A stretch of 64,000 bases of DNA from Ruania zhangjianzhongii (GTDB taxonomy: Bacteria; Actinomycetota; Actinomycetes; Actinomycetales; Beutenbergiaceae), in NCBI RefSeq assembly GCF_008000995.1, contig NZ_CP042828.1, positions 2,780,882 through 2,844,881 on the forward strand. The letters are read 5' to 3'. Under the pieces are notes generated by a model. The model was not told the origin of the DNA. It ran no database searches and saw only the letters and a program-made list of their open reading frames with translations. Below are positions 5,068 through 49,819 of the stretch, one piece after another. How positions within the stretch are numbered: position 1 is the first letter of the stretch; every line of letters begins with the position of its first letter. Both the position numbers and the translations under genes were made by a program.

Positions 5068-5885
5068 GACACTCCTTCCTCGAGTACGTCTGGCGGTGCC
5101 CCGATCTCGGGCGAAGGCGGCACGTCGGCGTCCTCCTGAAACACCCCGCGCAATGAGTCGCCGGGACCGACCATCGGCAGCCCCATCCGGCCCAGGCAGG
5201 CCCAGATGGTGAGCTGGTTCGCGGTCAGCACCGGTTTGCCCAGGTTGCGCTCCAGCGGGGCGATGATGTCGTACGTGGGCAGATTCGTGCAGGAGACGAA
5301 GATGGCCTCCGCGGCCGGGTCGTCGGCAGCCATCACCAGGTCGGCCACCGTACGGTAGTTCACCTTCCAGATCCCGCCACCCAGTCCGAGATACTGCGAG
5401 CGCACCACGGTCACGTCCAGCTCGCCGAGGAACTCCTCCAGCCGCCGGGTGAGCGGCTCGTCGTAGGGGGTGACCACCGAGATCGAGCTCAGTCCCAGCG
5501 TGCGGACCGCCTCGGCCAAGGCGCCGGACGTGGTCAGGCCGGAGGGTGCGCCGGCCGACTCGATCGCCGCACAGAGAGCCTCCTCGTACGCGACGCCGTG
5601 CACGAAGCTGCCAGAGCTGCACAGGAACGCGACTACCTCCGGCTCCACCCCGAGTACATCCCGGGTAGCGGTCTGCAGGTGGTCGGTGGCGGAGACCAGC
5701 TCGGCCATCTCCAGGCTGACCGGCACCGGTTCGTACGGGGTACGGGCCAGGTGCAGGCTCACCTCCATCGGTGCCCAGCGCCACAGCTCGCGCTCCAGTG
5801 CCAGGTCGAAAGGCGCGATGATGCCGATACCGCGTTGGGCCAGTGGGCCCTCGAACTCCGCGTCGCTCACTTCCACATATCTCAC
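5064..5885 (-). CDS. Maleate isomerase/Asp-Glu racemase-superfamily protein, copy 1
   Basis: A 273-aa paralogue of the next gene. Both superfamily cysteines are present, in FLCSSGSFVHG and FVSCTNLPTYD, as in maleate cis-trans isomerase. The ANQLTIWACL segment is shared with the neighbour (ANQVTIWEGL), showing tandem duplication with divergence. The start is GTG 5885; a weak AAAGG precedes it. It is the first gene of the GntR operon, transcribed away from the dehydrogenase-amidase pair across a shared 60-bp regulatory region. It probably isomerises or racemises a dicarboxylate-like intermediate. Confidence 0.85.
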   Translation of the reverse strand: MRYVEVSDAEFEGPLAQRGIGIIAPFDLALERELWRWAPMEVSLHLARTPYEPVPVSLEMAELVSATDHLQTATRDVLGVEPEVVAFLCSSGSFVHGVAYEEALCAAIESAGAPSGLTTSGALAEAVRTLGLSSISVVTPYDEPLTRRLEEFLGELDVTVVRSQYLGLGGGIWKVNYRTVADLVMAADDPAAEAIFVSCTNLPTYDIIAPLERNLGKPVLTANQLTIWACLGRMGLPMVGPGDSLRGVFQEDADVPPSPEIGAPPDVLEEGVS

Positions 5886-5946: not shown

Positions 5947-6918
5947 ATGCGAGATCGGCCCGTTGTCGTGCTGCACGACGGCGAGGTGCCCAGCCCCGAG
6001 ACGATGGCACCTCTCCAGCAGCTCACCCAGGTGCAGTACACCGATGAGGCGGGCCTCGCCGAGGCCTTGCCCGGCGCCGAGGTGTTGTTCGCGTACCACT
6101 TCACCTCGAAGGCGCTACCGGGGGCCTGGCACGCAGCCGATACGCTGCGCTGGCTGCATGTGGCGGCCGCCGGTGTAGACCCGTTCATGACCGAGGACGT
6201 GCTCGCCTCCGACGTCGTGGTGACCAACAGCCGGGGCGTGTTCGACGAGGCGATCGCCGAGTACGTGCTCGGCCAGGTGCTCGCGTTCGCCAAGGACCTG
6301 CCCGGCTCCTGGCGGCGGCAGCAGGAACAGCACTGGGAACACCGGGAGTCCGAGCGGGTCGCCGGCACCCGCGCGCTGGTGGTCGGCACCGGTCCGATCG
6401 GGCGGACGATCGCACGGTTGCTGCGCGCGGCCGGACTGCAGGTGCGAGGCTCCGGGCGCCGCGCCCGCGAGGACGATCCGGACTTCACCACGGTGTGCGC
6501 CCAGGAGGACCTGCCCCGTGAGCTCGCTCGAGCGGACTGGGTGGTGCTCGCGGCACCGCTGACCGACGCCACCCGGGGAATGATCGACACCGACGCGCTG
6601 GCCGCGATGCGCCCTGGTGCCCGGCTGATCAACGTCGGCCGCGGCGAGCTGGTCCGCACCGACGACCTGGTCAGTGCACTGCGCGATGAGGTGATCGCCG
6701 GTGCAGCCCTGGACGTGATGGATCCGGAGCCGTTGCCGGCCGCGCACCCGCTGTGGCAGCTGCCCACGGCGCTGATCACCCCGCACAACTCCGGGGACTT
6801 CGTCGGCTGGCGCCGTGCGCTGGTCGAGCTGTTCGCCGAGAACCTCGCCCGCTGGCAGGCGGGGGAACAGCTGGAGAACATCGTGGACAAGACCATGGGA
6901 TACGTACCAGGGAGCTGA
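5947..6918 (+). CDS. D-2-hydroxyacid dehydrogenase
   Basis: A 323-aa NAD(P)-dependent D-isomer-specific 2-hydroxyacid dehydrogenase. The Rossmann motif GTGPIGRTIAR is at about residue 147, the substrate Arg is in NVGRGELVR (about 231), the Glu is in MDPEPLP (about 260) and the His is in ITPHNSGD (about 279). No Shine-Dalgarno site is well placed, and the promoter geometry predicts a leaderless message beginning at this ATG. It lies 1 nt before the amidase gene and opposite the isomerase operon. It probably interconverts a 2-oxo acid and a D-2-hydroxy acid in the pathway controlled by the nearby GntR protein. Confidence 0.92.
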   Translation: MRDRPVVVLHDGEVPSPETMAPLQQLTQVQYTDEAGLAEALPGAEVLFAYHFTSKALPGAWHAADTLRWLHVAAAGVDPFMTEDVLASDVVVTNSRGVFDEAIAEYVLGQVLAFAKDLPGSWRRQQEQHWEHRESERVAGTRALVVGTGPIGRTIARLLRAAGLQVRGSGRRAREDDPDFTTVCAQEDLPRELARADWVVLAAPLTDATRGMIDTDALAAMRPGARLINVGRGELVRTDDLVSALRDEVIAGAALDVMDPEPLPAAHPLWQLPTALITPHNSGDFVGWRRALVELFAENLARWQAGEQLENIVDKTMGYVPGS

Positions 6919-6919
6919 C

Positions 6920-8287
6920 GTGGAACCCACCGAGATGACCGCCGTCGAACTCGTCACCGCCTACGGCGCCGGTGACCTCTCCCCGGTGGAGGTGACTTCC
7001 GCCGTCCTCGATCGGATCGAGGAGGTGGACCCGGAGCTGAACGCCTACAACCTGGTGGACTCCGAGGCGGCGCTGGCCCAAGCAAAGGAGTCCGAGCAGC
7101 GGTGGCAGTCCGGCTACAGCAAGGGCTTGCTCGACGGTGTGCCGATCTCGATCAAGGACATCTTCCTCACCAAGGGCTGGCCCACGCTGCGCGGGTCGGC
7201 CTCGGTGGATCCGGACCAACCGTGGGAGGTGGACTCCCCGGTGGCCGCCCGGCTGCGCGCGGACGGGATGGTGTTCGTCGGCAAGACCACCACCCCGGAG
7301 ATCGCGTGGAAGGCCGTCACCGACTCCCCGCTGACCGGGATCACCCGCAACCCGGCGGACCCGACGAAGACTGCTGGCGGCTCGTCCGGTGGAGCCGGTG
7401 CAGCAGTGGCTGCCGGGATGGCACCGCTGGCTGTGGGTACCGACGGCGGGGGAAGCGTCCGGATCCCCGCGAGCTTCTGCGGGATCGTCGGGTTCAAACC
7501 CACCCAGGGTCGGATCCCGATGTTCCCGGCGAGCCCGTTCGCGCCGCTGGCTCATGCCGGGCCGATGACCCGGACAGTGGAGGACGCGGCGCTGCTGATG
7601 GACATCCTTGCGCTGCCGGACCACCGCGATCCCACGTCGCAGGCGCCGCCGCACCTGACCTACCGGGGGGAGTTCAACCGGGAGGTCACCGGGATGCACG
7701 TGGCCTACTCCCGCGACCTCGGCTACCTGCAGGTGGACGAAGAGGTGGCGCAGATCGTGGACGCCGCTGTAGCCAAGATCGACCAGGCCGGACTGCACGT
7801 GACCGCGGCCGACCCTGGCTTCGGCGATCCGATCGAGTCGTTCGAGAAGATGTGGGCCAGTGGTGCGGCGACGCTGCTGCGGACGATGCCCGGCGCCCGG
7901 GAGACCATCGATCCCGGTCTCGGTGCGGTGTGGGACCTGGGGGAGAGTCTCAGCGCGATCGACTACATCCAGGCCCGTGGTGTCGGTGCCGCCGTCGGCA
8001 TCCGGATGGGGGAGTTCGGCGAGGAGCACAACGCGCTGCTCACTCCGACCGTGGCGATCCCGCCGTTCGAGGCCGGCCACGACGTACCCCCGGACAGCGG
8101 GATGACCCGGTGGCCGCAGTGGGCCGGGTTCAGCTTCCCGTTCAACATGACCGGGCAGCCGGCGATCAGCATCCCGGTCGGCCACACCGCCGCCGGACTG
8201 CCTGTCGGCCTGCAGATCGTCGGTCCCCGGCACGCGGACGACCTGGTGCTCGCGCTCGGCCGGTTCGTGGAGTGGCTGCTGGCCTGA
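6920..8287 (+). CDS. Amidase (amidase signature family)
   Basis: A 455-aa amidase signature hydrolase. The Ser-cisSer-Lys triad is visible: Lys in PISIKDIF (about residue 78), cis-Ser in GGSSGGAGAA (about 154) and nucleophile Ser in DGGGSVRIPASFCG (about 178). The GTG start follows GGGAG by about 6 nt and the dehydrogenase stop by 1 nt, so the genes form one operon. The family hydrolyses carboxamides to acid and ammonia; the substrate is not determinable here. The operon context suggests that an amide enters or leaves the GntR-regulated catabolic route. Confidence 0.93.
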   Translation: MEPTEMTAVELVTAYGAGDLSPVEVTSAVLDRIEEVDPELNAYNLVDSEAALAQAKESEQRWQSGYSKGLLDGVPISIKDIFLTKGWPTLRGSASVDPDQPWEVDSPVAARLRADGMVFVGKTTTPEIAWKAVTDSPLTGITRNPADPTKTAGGSSGGAGAAVAAGMAPLAVGTDGGGSVRIPASFCGIVGFKPTQGRIPMFPASPFAPLAHAGPMTRTVEDAALLMDILALPDHRDPTSQAPPHLTYRGEFNREVTGMHVAYSRDLGYLQVDEEVAQIVDAAVAKIDQAGLHVTAADPGFGDPIESFEKMWASGAATLLRTMPGARETIDPGLGAVWDLGESLSAIDYIQARGVGAAVGIRMGEFGEEHNALLTPTVAIPPFEAGHDVPPDSGMTRWPQWAGFSFPFNMTGQPAISIPVGHTAAGLPVGLQIVGPRHADDLVLALGRFVEWLLA

Positions 8288-8431: not shown

Positions 8432-10264
8432 GTGCTGCCTGACCACCGATCCCTCCGACCACTCGCCACCGCGGCCCTCGCCACCGCGCTCGGCGCCATG
8501 CTGACCCTGCCGGCGAGCGCCGCACTCCTCGAGACCGACGATGCCCGGACGAATGTGATCGTCCTGATCGCCGACGGTATGGGCTACAACCACATCGATG
8601 TTGCCAACCTCTTCACCGACGGCCAGGCGACCTACCAAGACCAGGAGGTGAATCCCCACCTGGCCACCCACGGTTCGGACTCGGTTCCGGTGCAGGACTA
8701 CCAGAGCTTCGACGTCCAGCTCGCCGTCGAGACCGGCTACATCTACTCCCAGCCGTACGCCGGGATCGGTGCGTGGGACACGCCGCGGCACGCGACCCGC
8801 GACAACCCGAACGAGCGGCTCAACGTCACGGACTCCGCCGCCGCAGCGACCGCCATGTCCACCGGAGTCCGGACGAAGGGTGGCTTTCTTGGCCTGGACG
8901 ATGACGAGGAGCCGCTCCTCGACATGGTGGACGTCGCCAGCACCGAGGGTCTGGCGACAGGGATCGCGACCACGGCGCGGTTCTGGTCCGATACTCCGGC
9001 GGGTTTCGCCGTGCACACCGACGACGATGACACCGACGGCATCATCGCCCAGTTGCTGGGGCACGAGGACCTCGACGTCATCATGGGCGGCGGGCACCCT
9101 GAGTTCACCAACGACGGTGAACCGAAGCCGGGGTACTTTCGCTACCTCCACCAAGACGTGTGGGAGGGCCTCAACGGCGGACCGGCCGTCGAAGGGCTCC
9201 CGGACTGGACATTGGTCGACGATCGCGCCAGCTTCCAGGGGCTGGCGACCGGCGAGACTCCGCAGCGGGTCTTCGGTCTCGCGCCCACGGACGGCGCCCT
9301 ATTCCACGATCGCCCCGGCGATCGTGAGATCCCGTTCGCCGAGCCGAGGTCGGAGGAGATTCCCCGGCTGCCCGAGATGGCCCTAGGCACGCTGAACGTC
9401 CTCGCCAACGCCAGTGCGGACGGGTTCTTCGCGCTGATCGAGCAGGCGACCGTCGACAGCGCCGGCCACGCCGGCGAGCTCGGTCGCACCATCGAGAATA
9501 TGGTCGCGTTCCACGAGACCGTCGACGCCGTTATCGAGTGGGTGGAGACCGAGTCCTCGTGGGCGGAGACCACTGTCATCGTGACCGCCGACCACGAGAC
9601 CGGAAACCTGCAGGGGGCAGGCACCCTGGACAGCGGTGGCTTCGAGCCGATCACCGGCTCCGCCGGCGAGCTTCCCGCCGCCGAGTTCACCGACTTCACG
9701 GACGGCGAACCGGGGGAGCAGAACCCGCACTACCACACCCACCAGCTCGTTCCGCTGTTCGCCCAAGGACCGGCCGCGGACGCCTTGGCGGCAGCCGCCA
9801 CGAACACCGACCCGGTGCGCGGCGCCTACCTGCAGAACACTGATATCGCCCACGTCCTGCACGCCGAGCTGCGGTCCGCGAACGATGCACCAGAGCCAGA
9901 GCCAGAGCCAACGCAGGACCCGGAGCCGGAGCCGACCGACGCGCCGTCACCTGACCCTGCCCCGGCACCGGGGCCCGAACCGGAACCGACCGGACCCGGT
10001 GAGGCTCCGGGGATGGACCCCACCGCCGGTGGCGAGCCCCAGCCGGACGAGACCGACGCCCCCGAACCCAGCGACGGTGCACCGGAACCGGCCGACGAGC
10101 CGGCCACCGGGACGGCTGCCTCCGACAGTGGCGCCCTGGCGCAGACCGGGGTGAGCGCCGCTGGCCTCCTCGCCACAGTCGCCGCCGCTTTCCTGCTCAC
10201 CGGCGGCCTCACCCTCGGCATCCGCCGGAGCCGAGCCCACGCAGGCCCGCCGACCGAGGGGTGA
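8432..10264 (+). CDS. Secreted alkaline phosphatase with LAxTG sortase anchor
   Basis: A 610-aa exported, wall-anchored phosphomonoesterase. An N-terminal signal peptide ends near LTLPASAA. The alkaline phosphatase domain follows, with VIVLIADGMGYNHID (metal Asp), the nucleophile region TDSAAAATAMSTG (about residue 133), TVDSAGHAGE and VTADHETGN. After about residue 485 comes a Pro/Glu-rich linker (PEPEPEPTQD and similar). The protein ends with LAQTG (569-573), a hydrophobic helix and RRSR, which is a class E sortase (LAxTG) signal. GTG 8432 was chosen because GGAG precedes it and the signal peptide begins there. It ends 2 nt before a convergent gene. Confidence 0.92.
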   Translation: MLPDHRSLRPLATAALATALGAMLTLPASAALLETDDARTNVIVLIADGMGYNHIDVANLFTDGQATYQDQEVNPHLATHGSDSVPVQDYQSFDVQLAVETGYIYSQPYAGIGAWDTPRHATRDNPNERLNVTDSAAAATAMSTGVRTKGGFLGLDDDEEPLLDMVDVASTEGLATGIATTARFWSDTPAGFAVHTDDDDTDGIIAQLLGHEDLDVIMGGGHPEFTNDGEPKPGYFRYLHQDVWEGLNGGPAVEGLPDWTLVDDRASFQGLATGETPQRVFGLAPTDGALFHDRPGDREIPFAEPRSEEIPRLPEMALGTLNVLANASADGFFALIEQATVDSAGHAGELGRTIENMVAFHETVDAVIEWVETESSWAETTVIVTADHETGNLQGAGTLDSGGFEPITGSAGELPAAEFTDFTDGEPGEQNPHYHTHQLVPLFAQGPAADALAAAATNTDPVRGAYLQNTDIAHVLHAELRSANDAPEPEPEPTQDPEPEPTDAPSPDPAPAPGPEPEPTGPGEAPGMDPTAGGEPQPDETDAPEPSDGAPEPADEPATGTAASDSGALAQTGVSAAGLLATVAAAFLLTGGLTLGIRRSRAHAGPPTEG

Positions 10265-42147: not shown

Positions 42148-42543
42148 TCAGGATCCCGGTGCCACACACCGCACGCCGGCCCGCCCGGCGACTTGCAGCA
42201 GTTCCCGGTCGTAGGTGAGCAGTTCGTCGGCCTGTACGCGTAGCGCTGTTGCCAGGTGCAGCGCATCAGCACTTCGCAGCCCCCACGCCGACGTGCCGGC
42301 TCGGATCATGTCCTCGCGTTCGAGATCGATCAACGCGAGCGCATCCAAGACGGCGTTCACCGACTCCGCCGCGATCCCCCGTCGGCGATATGCGGCGCAG
42401 TGGAGCTCTGTGTAGAGCAGCCAGGACGCGACCACGTCGTCCCCGCGCGCCATGGAGTCTTCGAGGCTGTCGGCAAGGAGATCGGCGAACGGCTCATCCA
42501 CGAGGAGCTTCAGCGCTGCTGAGGTGTCGAGGTACCGGATCAT
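42148..42543 (-). CDS. vapC: VapC-type PIN toxin
   Basis: A 131-aa PIN-domain RNase: RYLDTSAALKLLV (first Asp), WLLYTELHCAAYRR (Glu), LRSADALHLATAL (Asp) and LLTYDRELLQVA (Asp). The active site is complete. The start overlaps the antitoxin stop by 4 nt. This type differs from the other two VapCs here and pairs with a Phd-type antitoxin. Confidence 0.88.
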   Translation of the reverse strand: MIRYLDTSAALKLLVDEPFADLLADSLEDSMARGDDVVASWLLYTELHCAAYRRRGIAAESVNAVLDALALIDLEREDMIRAGTSAWGLRSADALHLATALRVQADELLTYDRELLQVAGRAGVRCVAPGS

Positions 42544-42803
42544 CGATCGCCCCGCAGGTCCTCCAGCAGCTCGGCACTGGTGACGTTCTTGGTCCGCTGC
42601 AGATCGCGGAGTGAGCGTCGGTCCGGACGCGGCGGGCGGAGCCGCCCTGCCGCGGCGAGGTCGTCAAGGGGCCGCGCCCCCGGCGGCCCGATCACCGCGG
42701 CCGCTTCGCCGTGATTGGTGACCGTGAACGACTCGCCCTTGGCCACGCGGGCAAGCACCCGAGAACTCTCGTTCCTCAACTGCCGGTGCGGAATGCTTTC
42801 CAT
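42540..42803 (-). CDS. Phd/YefM-type antitoxin
   Basis: An 87-aa antitoxin: IPHRQLRNESSRVLARVAKGESFTVTNHGEAAAVIGPPG is the Phd DNA-binding and dimer core, and LRPPRPDRRSLRDLQRTKNVTSAELLEDLRGDR the toxin-binding tail. AGGAGG lies 8 nt before ATG 42803, which settles the start. Tandem 9-bp repeats overlap its promoter. Confidence 0.88.
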   Translation of the reverse strand: MESIPHRQLRNESSRVLARVAKGESFTVTNHGEAAAVIGPPGARPLDDLAAAGRLRPPRPDRRSLRDLQRTKNVTSAELLEDLRGDR

Positions 42804-42819
42804 CGCCGCCACCTCCTTC

Positions 42820-42837
42820 TGTAGCAACTGTAGCAAC
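42820..42837 (-). promoter_or_regulatory. Tandem 9-bp repeats in the Phd-VapC promoter
   Basis: TGTAGCAAC occurs twice without a gap (42820-42828, 42829-42837). On the minus strand they create TACAGT (42832-42827), a fair -10 box about 24 nt before the antitoxin ATG, so they may be the antitoxin-binding half sites. Confidence 0.5.
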
Positions 42838-42923: not shown

Positions 42924-45089
42924 TCAGTACGTCAGGCCGTGCCCGTAGCTGAACAGCTCACCATCCGCGGTGCCCTCGTACCCGGGAAGATCGCTCGCCT
43001 GCTCCTCGACGGCCGCCCGTGTACCGGCCAGGGCGAACGGCATCCGGCCCTGAGGAGAGAATCGACCGGTGAGCACGTCCAGCAGAGCTTCGTCCGAGAT
43101 ACCGAAGGTCGCCACGATCGCCCCTGCCTCGCGCAGGCCGCTCGCCTCGTCCAGCACGAACGGCTGACGGAAGTACACATCCAGCACCACCTTGGTCGCA
43201 TCGCCCACCTCACCGATGACCTCCTGGATGGTCCGCAACGAGGGCCGCACCCGCCACGACTCGGCCTCCTCCATCCCAGAGAAGTCGATCACTGTGCTCT
43301 CCCAGGGCAACGGGCCACCGAACGGTAGCCCGTCATCGGTGCTCGCCTCGGCGCCGTAGGCCACGCCCGCGTCCGCCGCACCATAGGGGCTGCGCCCATC
43401 CAGCCCGCGCACTCCGGGGAACACGATCGGGTTGATCTTGTCCGGACGCATCCCGGAGGTGGCCTCCGCGCTCCGGTACTCCCCCGTACCCAGCGTCAGC
43501 GCGCTCAGCCGCACCACCACGTGATCCGCTCCCTGGGCGCTCGGCCGGTCCTCCGCATTGCCATCCACCACCTCGAACCCGGCGGCGGTGAGCACGTCAG
43601 TGTCCACCTCGCCCAGCACGTAGACCCTCGCCCCCGGCTGCAGCGGCAGCGCCCGACCAGCACCGTCGGCCCGGTCCCGGTTCTGCAGCAGCACCACGGA
43701 GCGGCGCTGCACCTGCAGAGCGGTCTCACCGTGCTCCGGGCTGGCGAGCACGGCATTCGCCGCCGTCTCATCCACGTACGGGTTCTCGAACAGTCCCATC
43801 AGGAACATCGGCACGAGCAGGCGCCGCGCGGCAAGGTCGATCCGCTCCTCGCTCACCAGACCGTCGGTGACCAGGCTGGTGATCACGTCGATGTCGTGGA
43901 AACCCGACAGCGTATCGGTACCGGAGTTGATGGCAGCGGCCACCCGCTGCGGCACACTCGCCTCTTCCAGTCCCCAGGCACGGTCGGTGACGATCCCGGT
44001 ATCGGAGTTGACATAACCGGCGAAGCCGAGGCTCTCCCGCAACAAGCCGCCCACGATCTGGTCGCTGAACGCCATCCCGATCTCGTCATAGCGCACACCC
44101 TCGTAGGTCACCCCCATCGGCACCCCGTAGTAGGGCATGATCGCGGCCGCGCCGCCGGCCACCGCGGCCCGGAACGGCTGCAGATGCTGGCCGAAGTTCC
44201 CCCCGGGATACACCTGGGTCTTGCCGAAGGAGTAGTGCGGGTCGAGCCCTCGCTCCTGCGGTCCACCGCCGGGAAAATGCTTGATCGTCAGCGCGACGTC
44301 CGACGCCGGGCTCAGCGACGAACCATCGGTCACCTCCGGCCCCTGCAAGGTGCCCAGCAGCGCAGTGACGATGTCGCTGGTCAGGTCGGCACTCTCGCTG
44401 AAGCACTCGTGCGTGCGGTACCAGCGCGGTTCAGTGATCAGGTCGACCATGTACCCGTACATCCCGCGGAGCCCGATCGCGCGCCACTGGGCGCCCATCA
44501 CCTTGGCGAAGGCCGAGATCGGCTCCATGCTGCCCGCGCCCAGAGCCGCGGCGGCCAGACCGGCCTCCTTCGGAAACCCGCTGAACGCGCCGTTGCTCTC
44601 GTTGATCCCGGCCCGGGCATCCGGATCGATGTGGTTCCGGGCATTCGATTTGGCCAGCACCGGGATTCCCAGCCGGCTCCCCTCGGCCAGCTCCTGCACC
44701 TCGTTCATGAACGAAGCGGCCTGCTCCGCTGTCACTGACGACCCCGCGACGAACGGGTGGGAATCGTCACCCTGGCGCTCCTGACCGGGGACTGCCACCA
44801 CGTTCCGGAAGATGATCCGGCGCATGTGCTGTCCGCCGATGTACTCCGCGGCTACATCGGTGGGCCTGCCGCCCCACTGGGCGTTCACCGTGTCGATGAG
44901 CATCAGCCCGGCCTTCTCGGCCCATGTCATCCGGGCCACCAGGTCCTCGGCCCGCTCCTGGGCAGGCAGTCGCCAGTCCTCGTACGGCGCCAGCTGCCCG
45001 TCGCCGTCGAGGTCCCGGAAGTGCAGGCCGTCGACGGCGATGGTCGCCTTGGTCCGGACACCGAGAGTGGGCTGCTCAGGAGTGGGCAT
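42924..45089 (-). CDS. Glycoside hydrolase family 3
   Basis: A 721-aa family 3 glycosidase without a signal peptide, hence cytoplasmic. The N-terminal TIM-barrel has ALTIKHFPGGG with substrate-binding residues and GYVNSDTGIV, in which the Asp of the usual SDxxxM motif is retained as nucleophile. The second domain shows RRSVVLLQN, and the end YEGTADGELFSYGHGLTY is typical. The N-terminal DLDGDGQLAPYEDW is an EF-hand/dockerin-like calcium loop. GAGGAA precedes the ATG. It lies 47 nt after the sugar symporter gene, so imported oligosaccharide or glycoside would be split in the cytosol. Confidence 0.9.
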   Translation of the reverse strand: MPTPEQPTLGVRTKATIAVDGLHFRDLDGDGQLAPYEDWRLPAQERAEDLVARMTWAEKAGLMLIDTVNAQWGGRPTDVAAEYIGGQHMRRIIFRNVVAVPGQERQGDDSHPFVAGSSVTAEQAASFMNEVQELAEGSRLGIPVLAKSNARNHIDPDARAGINESNGAFSGFPKEAGLAAAALGAGSMEPISAFAKVMGAQWRAIGLRGMYGYMVDLITEPRWYRTHECFSESADLTSDIVTALLGTLQGPEVTDGSSLSPASDVALTIKHFPGGGPQERGLDPHYSFGKTQVYPGGNFGQHLQPFRAAVAGGAAAIMPYYGVPMGVTYEGVRYDEIGMAFSDQIVGGLLRESLGFAGYVNSDTGIVTDRAWGLEEASVPQRVAAAINSGTDTLSGFHDIDVITSLVTDGLVSEERIDLAARRLLVPMFLMGLFENPYVDETAANAVLASPEHGETALQVQRRSVVLLQNRDRADGAGRALPLQPGARVYVLGEVDTDVLTAAGFEVVDGNAEDRPSAQGADHVVVRLSALTLGTGEYRSAEATSGMRPDKINPIVFPGVRGLDGRSPYGAADAGVAYGAEASTDDGLPFGGPLPWESTVIDFSGMEEAESWRVRPSLRTIQEVIGEVGDATKVVLDVYFRQPFVLDEASGLREAGAIVATFGISDEALLDVLTGRFSPQGRMPFALAGTRAAVEEQASDLPGYEGTADGELFSYGHGLTY

Positions 45090-45136: not shown

Positions 45137-47227
45137 TCAGGCGTTCGACGGCGGATTCGCGCCCGCCTCTGGGTACTTGCTGCGGTAGAAGCCGACGATC
45201 ATGTCGACCACCTGCGCATAGGTCACCGTGCCGGTGTTGATCACCAGATCGTAGGACTCATCGGTGTGTGGGTCCCACTGGTACAGGTTGCGGGACATCT
45301 CGGCGCGCACACTGTCCTCGAAATCAATCCTCGCCTCGGCGCCGCGCTCGTCCAGTTCGGTCTTGGACATCACCCGCTGGATACGCATCGGCAGCGGAGC
45401 CGTCAACCGCACGTGCAGCGCTCCGACGGCACGGCCGAGCACGACCGCGCCGTTACGACCGGCGATCACGGCACCGTCCTCGGCGAACTTCAACAGTTCC
45501 AGGCGGTTGCGCTCGGCGACGGAATGGTCTTCGGCAGTCTCGATTGCCCGAGCCATGTCCGCGTCCTGGGTGCCGGTGTAGGAGACCGTACGCAGCCAGC
45601 GATCGAAGGCGCTGTCCGAGGTGAGCAACTGCGCATCGGCATCGGCGACCTGGTCGGAGCTGAACTTCTGCGGCACATACTTCACCCCCAGCTTCTTCGC
45701 GACCGCTGGCCCGATGTCCGAGGCGCCGGCACCTTCGCGTTCAAAGATCGTCACCACCGGCAGCGTTCCCCGGTCCCGAGGGCGCAGGAGGAGGTCCCGG
45801 GCATCGCCCAGACCGTCGACACGCACCCGCGAGGCATCAACCCCATAGTTGCTGCTCACCGCGCCCACCGAGCGACGGGCGTTCAGGTCCCGGACGAGCT
45901 CCTTGTGCTGATCGACGCTCAGGTTGTACCAGATCATCACCACAGTGGCTGCGACCGCGATCGCAGCGGGCACCAGACCGGTGGCCAGTCGGATGCCCTC
46001 TTGCGCCGTCGCATCCTGCACATCGGCCTGTGCCACGTATCCGTACGCGCCGATCAGGGCTGCGCCGGCCCAGCCGCCGACTCCCTGACCACACTTCCGG
46101 ATGAAGGAGAGGATCGAGTAGGAGCCACCCTCGGAGCGCAACCCGGTCTTCCACTCACCGAAGTCCACCGTGTCCGCTTGCATCGAGAACATCAGCGCGT
46201 TGGTGCCGCCGGTGCCGAGGCCGAACAGGAACCAGGCCACGATCGCCAACGGCAGACTGCCCTCTGGCACGAGGTAGATCAGCACGAACGCCAGGATGGT
46301 GACCATCGCTGCACCGATATAGCCGTTGCGCTTTCCGAACCGCGAGGTGATCCCGGCCACCAGCGAGGCGATCAGCACGGTGCCCACGGTCTGGGCGATC
46401 GTCAGGAAGATGTACCAGGCCGCATTGCCCAGCACGTAGCGCGCGTAGTACATCGCCACGGCGTTCATCATGAACATCGCGGCGAGGAGGAAGAACGCAC
46501 CCAGGCACAACACGATCAGCGGCCGGTTCTGTCGCAGCATTGTCAGTGTGCGCCGGAGCGAGATCTTGGTCGCGCTGCGCGGAACGACCTCCTTGGTGTT
46601 CCGGAAGCAGATCAGGTACAGGACCACGGCCACGAGCCCGAGTGCGACCGTCGTCAGGGTGAACTGCAGCCGCACACCATCGCTGGTGGTGTCCTGGAAC
46701 TGCGGTGCGACGACAGCGGACAGTGCGACTGCTGTCAACGAGTTGGTGATCGACCGAGCGCCCGACAGCTTCGACCGGTCCACCGAGTCCTGCGTCATCG
46801 CGGCTGCCAAGGAGCCGTAGGGGATGTTGACGAAGGAGTAGGCCAGCTGGAACGCCGCGTCGAGCAGGAAGATCCACGCGATCGTCAGCGCGGGACTGAG
46901 ACCGGCAGGCACGCTGAAGAGGAGGACGAACACGATCGCCAACGGCGTGCTGCCGAACAGCAGCCATGGGCGCAACCGGCCCCACCGGGTGTTCGTCCGG
47001 TCGACGACCTGGCCCGCGATCAGGTCCGCGGCACCCGCCCAGATCTTGGTGACACCGTAGATCGTGCCCGCCACCCCGGCCGAGAGCCCGGCGATGTCGG
47101 TCATGTAGACCATGAGGAACATCGACGTCATCATGAACGTCAAGTTGTTCGCGACGTCACCGAGGGAGTAGGAGAACACCTGGCCGCCGGAGAGCGTACC
47201 CCCGGTCCTCCCGGACTTCTCCGCCAT
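45137..47227 (-). CDS. GPH-type sugar:cation symporter fused to a cytidylate kinase-like domain
   Basis: A 696-aa fusion. Residues about 1-455 form a 12-helix MFS carrier of the glycoside-pentoside-hexuronide (MelB-like) family: VYMTDIAGLSAGVAGTIYGVTKIW, AGQVVDRTNTRWGRLRPWLL and QADTVDFGEWKTGLRSEG. After a linker, residues about 487-690 match cytidylate-kinase-like domains: VVTIFEREGAGASDIGPAVAKKLGVKYV, DGAVIAGRNGAVVLG, RLTAPLPMRIQRVM and YDLVINTGTVTYAQVVDMIV. The P-loop is degenerate (GAGAS). GGGAG selects the start MAEK. It is the first gene of the operon with GH3. Confidence 0.87.
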   Translation of the reverse strand: MAEKSGRTGGTLSGGQVFSYSLGDVANNLTFMMTSMFLMVYMTDIAGLSAGVAGTIYGVTKIWAGAADLIAGQVVDRTNTRWGRLRPWLLFGSTPLAIVFVLLFSVPAGLSPALTIAWIFLLDAAFQLAYSFVNIPYGSLAAAMTQDSVDRSKLSGARSITNSLTAVALSAVVAPQFQDTTSDGVRLQFTLTTVALGLVAVVLYLICFRNTKEVVPRSATKISLRRTLTMLRQNRPLIVLCLGAFFLLAAMFMMNAVAMYYARYVLGNAAWYIFLTIAQTVGTVLIASLVAGITSRFGKRNGYIGAAMVTILAFVLIYLVPEGSLPLAIVAWFLFGLGTGGTNALMFSMQADTVDFGEWKTGLRSEGGSYSILSFIRKCGQGVGGWAGAALIGAYGYVAQADVQDATAQEGIRLATGLVPAAIAVAATVVMIWYNLSVDQHKELVRDLNARRSVGAVSSNYGVDASRVRVDGLGDARDLLLRPRDRGTLPVVTIFEREGAGASDIGPAVAKKLGVKYVPQKFSSDQVADADAQLLTSDSAFDRWLRTVSYTGTQDADMARAIETAEDHSVAERNRLELLKFAEDGAVIAGRNGAVVLGRAVGALHVRLTAPLPMRIQRVMSKTELDERGAEARIDFEDSVRAEMSRNLYQWDPHTDESYDLVINTGTVTYAQVVDMIVGFYRSKYPEAGANPPSNA

Positions 47228-47258: not shown

Positions 47259-47287
47259 AGTTGACCTGACAACTAACTCTGACTATA
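47259..47287 (-). promoter_or_regulatory. Promoter and putative operator of the symporter-GH3 operon
   Basis: TATAGT on the minus strand (47287-47282) is a clear -10 box about 55 nt before the symporter ATG. AGTTGACCTGACAACT (47259-47274) just downstream is an inverted repeat (AGTTGWC around CT) covering the expected transcription start, so a repressor site is likely. No regulator gene lies next to it. Confidence 0.55.
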
Positions 47288-48269: not shown

Positions 48270-48674
48270 ATGAAGTACCTGATGCTGAAGCACTACCGCG
48301 GCGCCCCCACCAGCGTGAATGACGTGCCGATGGACCAGTGGACGCCCGAGGAGGTCACCGCCCACGTCCAGTTCATGAACGACTTCGCCGCGCATCTGGA
48401 GCAGACCGGGGAGTTCGTCGACGCTCAGGCCCTCTCCCCCGACGGCACGTTCGTCCGGTTCGACGGCGCCGGTAAGCCGCCGGTCACCGACGGTCCGTTC
48501 GCGGAGACGAAGGACCTGATCGCCGGCTGGATGGTGATCGACGTGGACAGCTACGACCGCGCCGTCGAGCTGGCCGGTGAGCTTTCTGCCGCCCCCGGTG
48601 CCGGGGGTGCGCCGATCCACGAATGGCTCGAGCTGCGCCCGTTCCTCACCGAGACCCCCGACACGACGGCGTGA
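48270..48674 (+). CDS. YCII-related (DGPF) protein, ECF42 partner
   Basis: A 134-aa YCII-related protein: KYLMLKHYRGAP, VQFMNDFAAHLEQTGEFVDAQALSPDG, VTDGPFAETKDLIAGWMVIDVDSYDRAVELAGELS with the DGPF motif, and EWLELRPF. AAGGAGAG precedes the ATG. Such proteins sit beside ECF42 sigma factors throughout actinobacteria, as here, with a 4-nt overlap (GTGA). They are thought to be part of the same response, but the mechanism is unknown. Confidence 0.9.
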   Translation: MKYLMLKHYRGAPTSVNDVPMDQWTPEEVTAHVQFMNDFAAHLEQTGEFVDAQALSPDGTFVRFDGAGKPPVTDGPFAETKDLIAGWMVIDVDSYDRAVELAGELSAAPGAGGAPIHEWLELRPFLTETPDTTA

Positions 48675-49819
48675 TCGGGATCGACGAGGCACTCCTGCGG
48701 GGCCTCGTGCCCCGCGTGATCGGCGTCCTCGTCCGCCGCGGAGCAGACTTCGCTGCGGCCGAGGACGCCGTCCAGGAAGGGCTCATCGAAGCACTGCGCA
48801 CGTGGCCGGACCGGCCGCCTCGGGATCCCCAGGCATGGCTCGTCACCGTCTCCTGGCGCAAGTTCCTCGACCTGGTCCGCTCCGAGGACGCCCGGGCGCG
48901 CCGCGAAGAGGTGACCGCTACCGAACCTGCCTCGCCAGTCAGCACGGCCACGGACGACACCCTGCAGCTGTACTTCCTCTGCGCCCATCCGAGGCTCACC
49001 CCCGCCTCCGCCGTCGCGCTGACCCTGCGCGCCGTCGGGGGCCTCACCACCCGGCAGATCGCCGCGGCCACCCTGGTGCCGGAAGCCACGATGGCCCAAC
49101 GGATCAGCCGCGCCAAACGCACGATCGCCACCGAACCGCTGAACCGGCCCGGCGATATCGCCACCGTCTGCCGGGTGCTCTACCTGATCTTCAACGAGGG
49201 CTACTCCGGTCATGTCGACCTGGCCGCAGAGGCGATTCGGCTCGGCCGGCAGCTGCACCGGATGACCGCACACCCCGAGGTCGCCGGGCTGCTGGCACTG
49301 ATGCTGCTGCACCACGCTCGCCGCGCAGCACGCACCACGGCCGACGGCGAGGTGGTCCCTCTCCCGGACCAGAACCGCGGGCAGTGGGACACCCACCTGA
49401 TCGCCGAGGGCATCGCCATCCTGCAGGAGGCGTTGGCCACCGACCAGCTGGGCGAGTACCAGGCACAGGCCGCGATCGCCGCGCTGCACGCCGACGCCCG
49501 GGACGCTGCCGAGACCGACTGGGTCCAGATCACCGAGTGGTACGACGAACTCGTCGCCCTCACCGATAGCCCGATCCACCGGCTCAACCGGGCTGTTGCC
49601 CTCGGTGAAGCTGATGGCCCCCGCGCCGGACTCGCAGCGCTGGCCGCACTCGACCCTGCACTCCCCCGCTACACCGCGGTGTCCGCACATCTGCACGAGT
49701 CCGACGGCGATCACGCGCAGGCTGCGCGGCTGTACGCGGAGGCCGCCGGGCACGCGGCGAGCATTCCGGAACGTCACCACCTGCTTCGCCAGGCGGCACG
49801 GCTGAACGCCGATCGCTGA
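48671..49819 (+). CDS. ECF42-type RNA polymerase sigma factor
   Basis: A 382-aa extracytoplasmic-function sigma factor. Region 2 is AAAEDAVQEGLIEALRTWP with PQAWLVTVSWRKFLDLVRSE. Region 4 is LTTRQIAAATLVPEATMAQRISRAKRTI. The long C-terminal extension (about residues 180-382, LIFNEGYSGHVDLAAEAIRLGRQL and following TPR-like helices) is typical of ECF42, which has no anti-sigma factor. GTG 48671 overlaps the YCII gene. The C-terminal domain probably sets activity. Confidence 0.92.
   Translation: MIGIDEALLRGLVPRVIGVLVRRGADFAAAEDAVQEGLIEALRTWPDRPPRDPQAWLVTVSWRKFLDLVRSEDARARREEVTATEPASPVSTATDDTLQLYFLCAHPRLTPASAVALTLRAVGGLTTRQIAAATLVPEATMAQRISRAKRTIATEPLNRPGDIATVCRVLYLIFNEGYSGHVDLAAEAIRLGRQLHRMTAHPEVAGLLALMLLHHARRAARTTADGEVVPLPDQNRGQWDTHLIAEGIAILQEALATDQLGEYQAQAAIAALHADARDAAETDWVQITEWYDELVALTDSPIHRLNRAVALGEADGPRAGLAALAALDPALPRYTAVSAHLHESDGDHAQAARLYAEAAGHAASIPERHHLLRQAARLNADR

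Follow-up and report, generated by a model that had tools for sequence, protein, structure and literature searches.

Why does a sugar symporter carry a nucleotide-kinase-like domain at its C-terminus? The question arises from a 64,000-nucleotide stretch of the Ruania zhangjianzhongii genome (hereafter the window; contig NZ_CP042828.1, positions 2,780,882 to 2,844,881). Here, a single minus-strand gene starts with an ATG at 47227, and its stop codon ends at 45137; the frame spans 696 codons without an internal stop. The ATG is preceded by GAGAGGGAG, and an alternative upstream TTG start would give a protein of 711 amino acids (aa). An earlier note, made from the window's letters alone, had read the gene as a GPH-family sugar carrier joined to a degenerate cytidylate-kinase-like domain. 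Its coordinates (45137..47227) are right, and the strand, which it did not give, is minus. Thirteen loci, a transporter tree, and the ratios of nonsynonymous to synonymous substitution rates (dN/dS) describe a carrier with a conserved extra C-terminal domain under selection.

Both parts of the protein score well above the Pfam cut-offs within one uninterrupted frame, which upholds the reading of a carrier with a C-terminal kinase-like domain. Residues 19–436 match MFS_2 (282.9 bits, cut-off 27), and residues 491–666 match Cytidylate_kin2 (PF13189; 97.6 bits, cut-off 28) over positions 1–175 of the 176-position profile. The symporter part (residues 14–452; 45872..47188, minus strand) also passes the GPH family model TIGR00792 (362.6 bits, cut-off 231.35, residues 18–451). 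Its top NCBIfam transporter model is UidB (NF007353) at 448.3 bits, below the equivalog cut-off of 528. The structure model of this part is mostly helical, with block values of the predicted local distance difference test (pLDDT) of 73–97, except for one block at 59. The linker that follows (residues 453–485; 45773..45871, minus strand) is poorly conserved, with 33–73% identity to nine relatives, and has pLDDT below 50 at residues 453–484. Beyond it lies the cytidylate-kinase-like domain, or tail (residues 486–689; 45161..45772, minus strand), whose AlphaFold2 model is closest to the structures 3hdt and 3fdi. No phosphotransferase system (PTS) or EIIA domain appears among the Pfam matches of the fusion protein up to E 1; the tail has a nucleotide-kinase fold instead, in keeping with the earlier note's statement that it is unrelated to EIIA-like tails.

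The joining of two genes by a sequencing error or a missed stop codon would explain the architecture away. We regard this as practically negligible because the same architecture is read in a single open frame in 10 loci from other assemblies, which rejects an artefact as far as sequence can. The search for the same domain order in other genomes, which the earlier note proposed, returned 12 other actinobacterial loci in all (L001–L011 and L058; 13 with the window). A contig scan gave 15 loci, 11 of which (L001–L011) encode the full architecture, and the other four, three from Clostridium and one from Solobacterium, match residues up to 456 at most. The 11 records comprise two Tessaracoccus, one Knoellia, five Corynebacterium (two of them metagenome-assembled genomes, MAGs), and three other MAGs named Actinomycetales, Propionibacterium, and Candidatus Avipropionibacterium. 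Nine of the 11 are in a single open frame. The other two have frame breaks in the fusion gene: several in L009 (3659–5070), whose 5 kb MAG contig stops short within the tail, and one in L010, from Corynebacterium lubricantis (about 5741–5780); either pseudogenes or assembly errors may account for them. L058 came from a search of the order and encodes the fusion in one frame; its carrier has 59% identity and its tail 35%. The tail is kept in all 13 fused loci found, in L009 as far as the contig reaches.

The fusion is rare in evenly drawn genome samples. Six of 396 genomes sampled from the order contain a tail match at E 1e-10, two of them fused. In the class sample, the tail is matched in 34 of 394 genomes, with a frame of fused length (711 aa) in the window's genome only and the next longest at 374 aa. 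PF13189 itself is common: in the phylum sample, in which at most eight candidates were scored per genome, 361 of 396 genomes have a match at E 0.001, 326 of them above the cut-off and many low-scoring. Besides the window's 711 aa frame, seven of the matches listed lie in frames of at least 600 aa (G009, G051, G092, G104, G189, G194, and G370), and those in G092 and G189 exceed 100 bits. PF13189 scores above 100 bits inside frames of 1118 aa in L060 (about 6636–7196) and 896 aa in L061 (about 7236–7787), which might be other fusions or merely long open frames. In the family of G1073, mostly large genomes among those listed, P0002 had a match at E 1e-100 in 2 of 341 genomes, and neither match carries the tail. 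In a plasmid collection, 71 records matched at E 1e-40; none had one place covering 80% of the query, and none carried the tail. The taxonomy of the fusion is patchy and therefore suggests horizontal spread.

Did the fusion arise once? A maximum-likelihood tree of 31 transporter sequences, from which L009 and L010 were omitted for their frame breaks, places the 11 fused carriers, L058 included, in one clade with 100/100 support. The tail tree (54 domains, with L009 omitted and three loci present in duplicate, L046/L059, L066/L097, and L075/L105) joins the 11 other fused tails with L058, L054, L055, and L056 in a clade of 15 (100/99). When all 12 fused tails are constrained to one clade, the log-likelihood drops by 0.44 units (p-AU 0.463, approximately unbiased test), a weak test given the program's warning of long branches, that of L058 among them. 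Two separate fusion events are unneeded, because the transporter tree places L058 inside the fused clade and a single clade of fused tails is not rejected. One fusion event, followed by fast change in L058, is the simplest reading.

Purifying selection acts as strongly on the tail as on the carrier among the five closest relatives of the window's fusion (L001, L002, L003, L008, and L011). By the Nei-Gojobori method, dN/dS of the window's sequence against these five is 0.150–0.205 in the tail and 0.147–0.191 in the carrier, and 0.235–0.593 in the 33-residue linker. Against four Corynebacterium sequences the ratios are 0.33–0.46 in the tail and 0.18–0.35 in the carrier, but dS is near or above 1 and these ratios are unsafe. 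Identity between the Corynebacterium proteins and the window's is 49–54% in the tail and 62–73% in the carrier. Change in the tail outpaces that in the carrier between the window's group and Corynebacterium, yet the tail is not a remnant left to drift. Had an accidental fusion left it behind as neutral sequence, the missing catalytic residues described below would fit, but this reading is hard to square with the low dN/dS among close relatives or with retention of the tail at all 13 loci, and we judge it very unlikely.

Is the tail a kinase? In Cmk, the cytidine monophosphate (CMP) kinase, the P-loop, the substrate-binding DTGAMYR motif, and the GRD motif are functional elements, and we compared them with the tail in a MAFFT alignment at low identity, in which the columns following strand 2 are the least certain. 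The P-loop GPSGTGKST of the genome's own Cmk (L128) aligns with EREGAGASD in the tail, as the earlier note's altered P-loop would have it, and the altered loop GAGASD (residues 499–504; 45716..45733, minus strand) has alanine in place of the Walker lysine. Alanine occupies this position in all 11 fused rows and in all four of L058, L054, L055, and L056, and the other 39 PF13189 rows contain 37 glycines, one alanine, and one gap. The lysine is thus missing in 53 of 54 rows, with a gap in the last. The aspartate after strand 2, in the DTGAMYR motif, is kept in 2 of 11 fused rows, in none of those four, and in 36 of the 39 others, and the tyrosine and arginine of the same motif are present in none and one of the 11 fused rows, respectively. 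By contrast, the arginine of the GRD motif is kept in all 54 rows, including the 11 fused ones, and aligns within Gly-Arg-Asn in the window's protein (residues 590–592; 45452..45460, minus strand). Both arginines of the RxxR stretch are kept in 11 of 11 fused rows.

With the lysine lost across the sampled PF13189 rows, we reject the view that the altered P-loop is peculiar to the fusion protein, and the shared loss qualifies the earlier description of the domain as degenerate. The P-loop is altered, but the missing lysine alone is no sign of decay in the fusion because it is common to the PF13189 rows examined; the further losses in the fused branch (alanine for glycine and, mostly, no aspartate after strand 2) are, as the alignment reads, a sign of decay. 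The tail is also not the cell's CMP kinase, because the genome has a standard cmk elsewhere (178 bits) and the tail lacks catalytic residues. The fusion, the only PF13189 match in this genome, fails the (d)CMP kinase model TIGR02173 (23.9 bits, cut-off 102.1). An active kinase or phosphotransferase with an unusual P-loop could instead work at the mouth of the carrier and, by modifying the sugar brought in, its aglycone, or a nucleotide, trap the product. The absence of the lysine from every fused row and of the aspartate from nine of the 11, the near-complete loss of the Tyr-Arg pair, and the separate gluconokinase or gluconokinase-like genes near the fusion in L007, L004, and L010 all argue against such an enzyme, which we consider rather improbable.

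What, then, might the tail do? The earlier note, whose interpretation is supported in part, had suggested that the domain may sense nucleotides or gate transport, as EIIA-like tails do. We propose, with about even confidence, that it is a non-catalytic ligand-binding domain that modulates uptake by the GPH carrier. The carrier would be a cation-coupled, UidB-like symporter for a hexuronide or related glycoside, and the tail a cytoplasmic, C-terminal, non-phosphorylating member of the CMP-kinase fold. Its cytoplasmic ligand would be small and anionic, perhaps a nucleotide or else a compound formed from the imported sugar, phosphorylated or uronic, and would sit in the old substrate and phosphate site. 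The bound tail could then alter transport through the flexible linker, in either direction, so that uptake would follow the energy or metabolite state of the cell. Alternatively, the tail may be a structural or docking module without a small-molecule ligand, one that stabilises the carrier or mediates oligomerisation or contact with a partner protein such as the glycosidase. Catalytic residues that are missing while the domain is conserved, and Corynebacterium tails that diverge more than their carriers, would suit such a module. Nonetheless, the old ligand-site motifs GxGA and GRNGA are among the positions that never vary in the fused tails, as are several arginines, and the neighbouring glycosidase is not constant (see below); we think a docking module a minor prospect.

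The genes beside the fusion bear on its substrate. The adjoining family 3 glycosidase that the earlier note reported is there: a gene for a 721 aa GH3 protein (42924..45089, minus strand; Glyco_hydro_3, 93.5 bits) lies 47 bp downstream of the fusion on the same strand, and the two are probably on the same transcript. No signal peptide is seen by eye at the start of the protein, which is above the cut-off of no NCBIfam model. As a partner of the fusion, the GH3 gene holds only in part. Three loci have it after the fusion (the window, L001, and L008; 81% identity among them); neither GH3 nor glucuronate genes adjoin the fusion in L002, L003, and L011, and a reading of the genes called beside the fusion in L058 finds no glycosidase. 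Glucuronate genes instead lie near the fusion in all five Corynebacterium loci. In L007, the order is glucuronate isomerase (604.7 bits, cut-off 387), a fructuronate-reductase-like gene (281.1 bits, below the cut-off of 603), beta-glucuronidase (822 bits, cut-off 544), the fusion, and gluconokinase (TIGR01313; 184.2 bits, cut-off 113.75). L004 encodes the mannonate dehydratase ManD (642.3 bits, cut-off 550), and its beta-glucuronidase shares 59% identity with the L007 enzyme. Glucuronate genes in the other Corynebacterium loci were assigned by similarity or reading only. From locus to locus, the neighbouring glycosidase is a GH3, a GH2, or absent.

In the window's organism, the genes of the glucuronate link are encoded elsewhere: both loci are far from the fusion. 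The genome contains a beta-glucuronidase (808.8 bits) and the glucuronate isomerase UxaC (555.7 bits), so the organism can probably use glucuronides. Three GPH carriers score over the cut-off in this genome, and the tail is found in the fusion only, with no tail match in L148 or L149. Candidate substrates of the fusion in this organism are glucuronides, other hexuronides, and beta-glucosides.

Kinase-like genes that are not fused can also lie beside GPH genes. In L056, from the same family as the window's organism, a PF13189 gene precedes a GPH gene by 35 bp, both on one strand, and the kinase-like protein falls in the clade that contains the fused tails. L059 has three genes in a row on one strand: a PF13189 gene, one for a beta-glucuronidase (882.8 bits), and a GPH gene whose identity to the window's is 42%, the last overlapping the beta-glucuronidase by 4 bp if its start is at 10199. 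The kinase-like protein of L059 belongs to another clade than the fused tails, and L059's own genome is the only one of 150 sampled in its genus with a PF13189 gene at E 1e-20. Because the L056 domain lies in the fused clade and the L059 domain lies outside it, the pairing of a kinase-like gene with a GPH gene seems to have arisen twice. A stronger version of our proposal is that a dead CMP-kinase domain acts as a nucleotide or metabolite sensor that gates a GPH symporter allosterically, and was recruited beside hexuronide uptake at least twice, in one case by fusion and in the other as an unfused member of a beta-glucuronidase operon. We put this forward tentatively and would sooner doubt it than accept it.

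Several observations weigh against a ligand-binding tail that regulates a glucuronide carrier. The missing lysine is shared across PF13189 and catalysis may proceed by another route than the P-loop lysine; between Corynebacterium and the window the tail diverges more than the carrier; and AlphaFold2 models the tail with moderate confidence (pLDDT 67.3; predicted template modelling score 0.68). An MFS_1 gene lies just upstream of the beta-glucuronidase gene in the window's genome, far from the fusion, which weakens the glucuronide assignment for the fusion there. Wide flanks were available for 21 of the 33 class matches besides the window's and for four of the five other genomes of the order search (not G611). 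A GPH gene is near only 2 of the 25 unfused PF13189 loci with such flanks, a small number, and a malic-enzyme gene is near 19 of 26 loci (the 25 plus L058). With few GPH neighbours and malic-enzyme genes nearby instead, PF13189 is not a transporter-specific partner, and its link with GPH genes outside the fusion is suggestive.

Free-standing PF13189 genes have a neighbourhood of their own. Among L093–L112, mostly from large genomes of one actinobacterial family, malic-enzyme genes occur near 19 of 20 and thioredoxin-TPR (tetratricopeptide repeat) genes near 18 of 20, the two families having been named in L093. This neighbourhood offers a second functional lead for PF13189, and the role of the fused tail, if resolved, would be the first. 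In L055 (7668–11026), an OmpR-type response regulator gene comes directly after a free-standing relative of the fused tail, and beyond it stand what read like ABC transporter genes.

Other features surround the fusion gene. The word TATAGTC (47281..47287, minus strand) is a candidate −10 element and also stands upstream of the fusion in L001, L008, and L011; by reading, it is absent from the 200 upstream bases of L002 and L003. A palindrome upstream of the gene, GTTGTCAGGTCAAC, was dropped because it is seen in the window only. A YCII-domain gene and then a sigma-70-family gene resembling those of extracytoplasmic function factors lie near the fusion in both the window (48270–49819) and L058 (6356–8038). 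Identity between the two loci is 76% and 71%; the arrangement differs, and the resemblance may reflect a shared neighbourhood or coincidence. Downstream of the GH3 gene (42148–42836), a PIN-domain gene and a Phd/YefM-like antitoxin gene (29.3 bits, cut-off 29.8) are likely a toxin-antitoxin pair.

The tail is compact, conserved, both fused and free-standing, and has clear candidate residues, which makes possible a direct test of a kinase fold as a transport switch. The literature searched gave no account of the fusion or of PF13189 function, with most subscription papers and the domain-architecture databases, where the architecture may be listed, outside its scope.

How does the fusion compare with known systems? 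Its carrier is closest in kind to UidB (GusB), the E. coli glucuronide carrier of the GPH family, to which it is about 40% identical over residues 12–454 in E. coli records; unlike the fusion, UidB has no tail. The PF13189 structures 3hdt (a putative kinase from Clostridium symbiosum) and 3fdi (an uncharacterized protein from Eubacterium ventriosum) have no transporter joined in the deposited chains. The EIIA fold of LacS presumably differs from that of the kinase-like tail. According to the review PMC10710835, many bacterial transporters bear fused domains of unknown function, and there is precedent for regulatory tails on MFS carriers. Such carriers with CBS, cyclic-nucleotide-binding, PAS, or UspA tails show plug-in domains, as in the fusion, from other families. 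UspA is known both fused to an MFS carrier and in the same operon, as is the kinase-like domain here, and the same review describes the UspA-transporter fusions as uncharacterised in transport. LacS, a GPH carrier with a fused domain that sets its activity, is like the fusion in logic (PMC10710835); its tail is an EIIA phosphorylated by HPr, whereas the window's fusion has no PTS match. By analogy, the fusion would resemble LacS in logic only, as a GPH carrier with a fused domain and metabolic control. Carriers with such fused domains are known; here the putative regulatory domain joined to the secondary carrier is of the CMP-kinase fold, for which the literature searched describes no such role.
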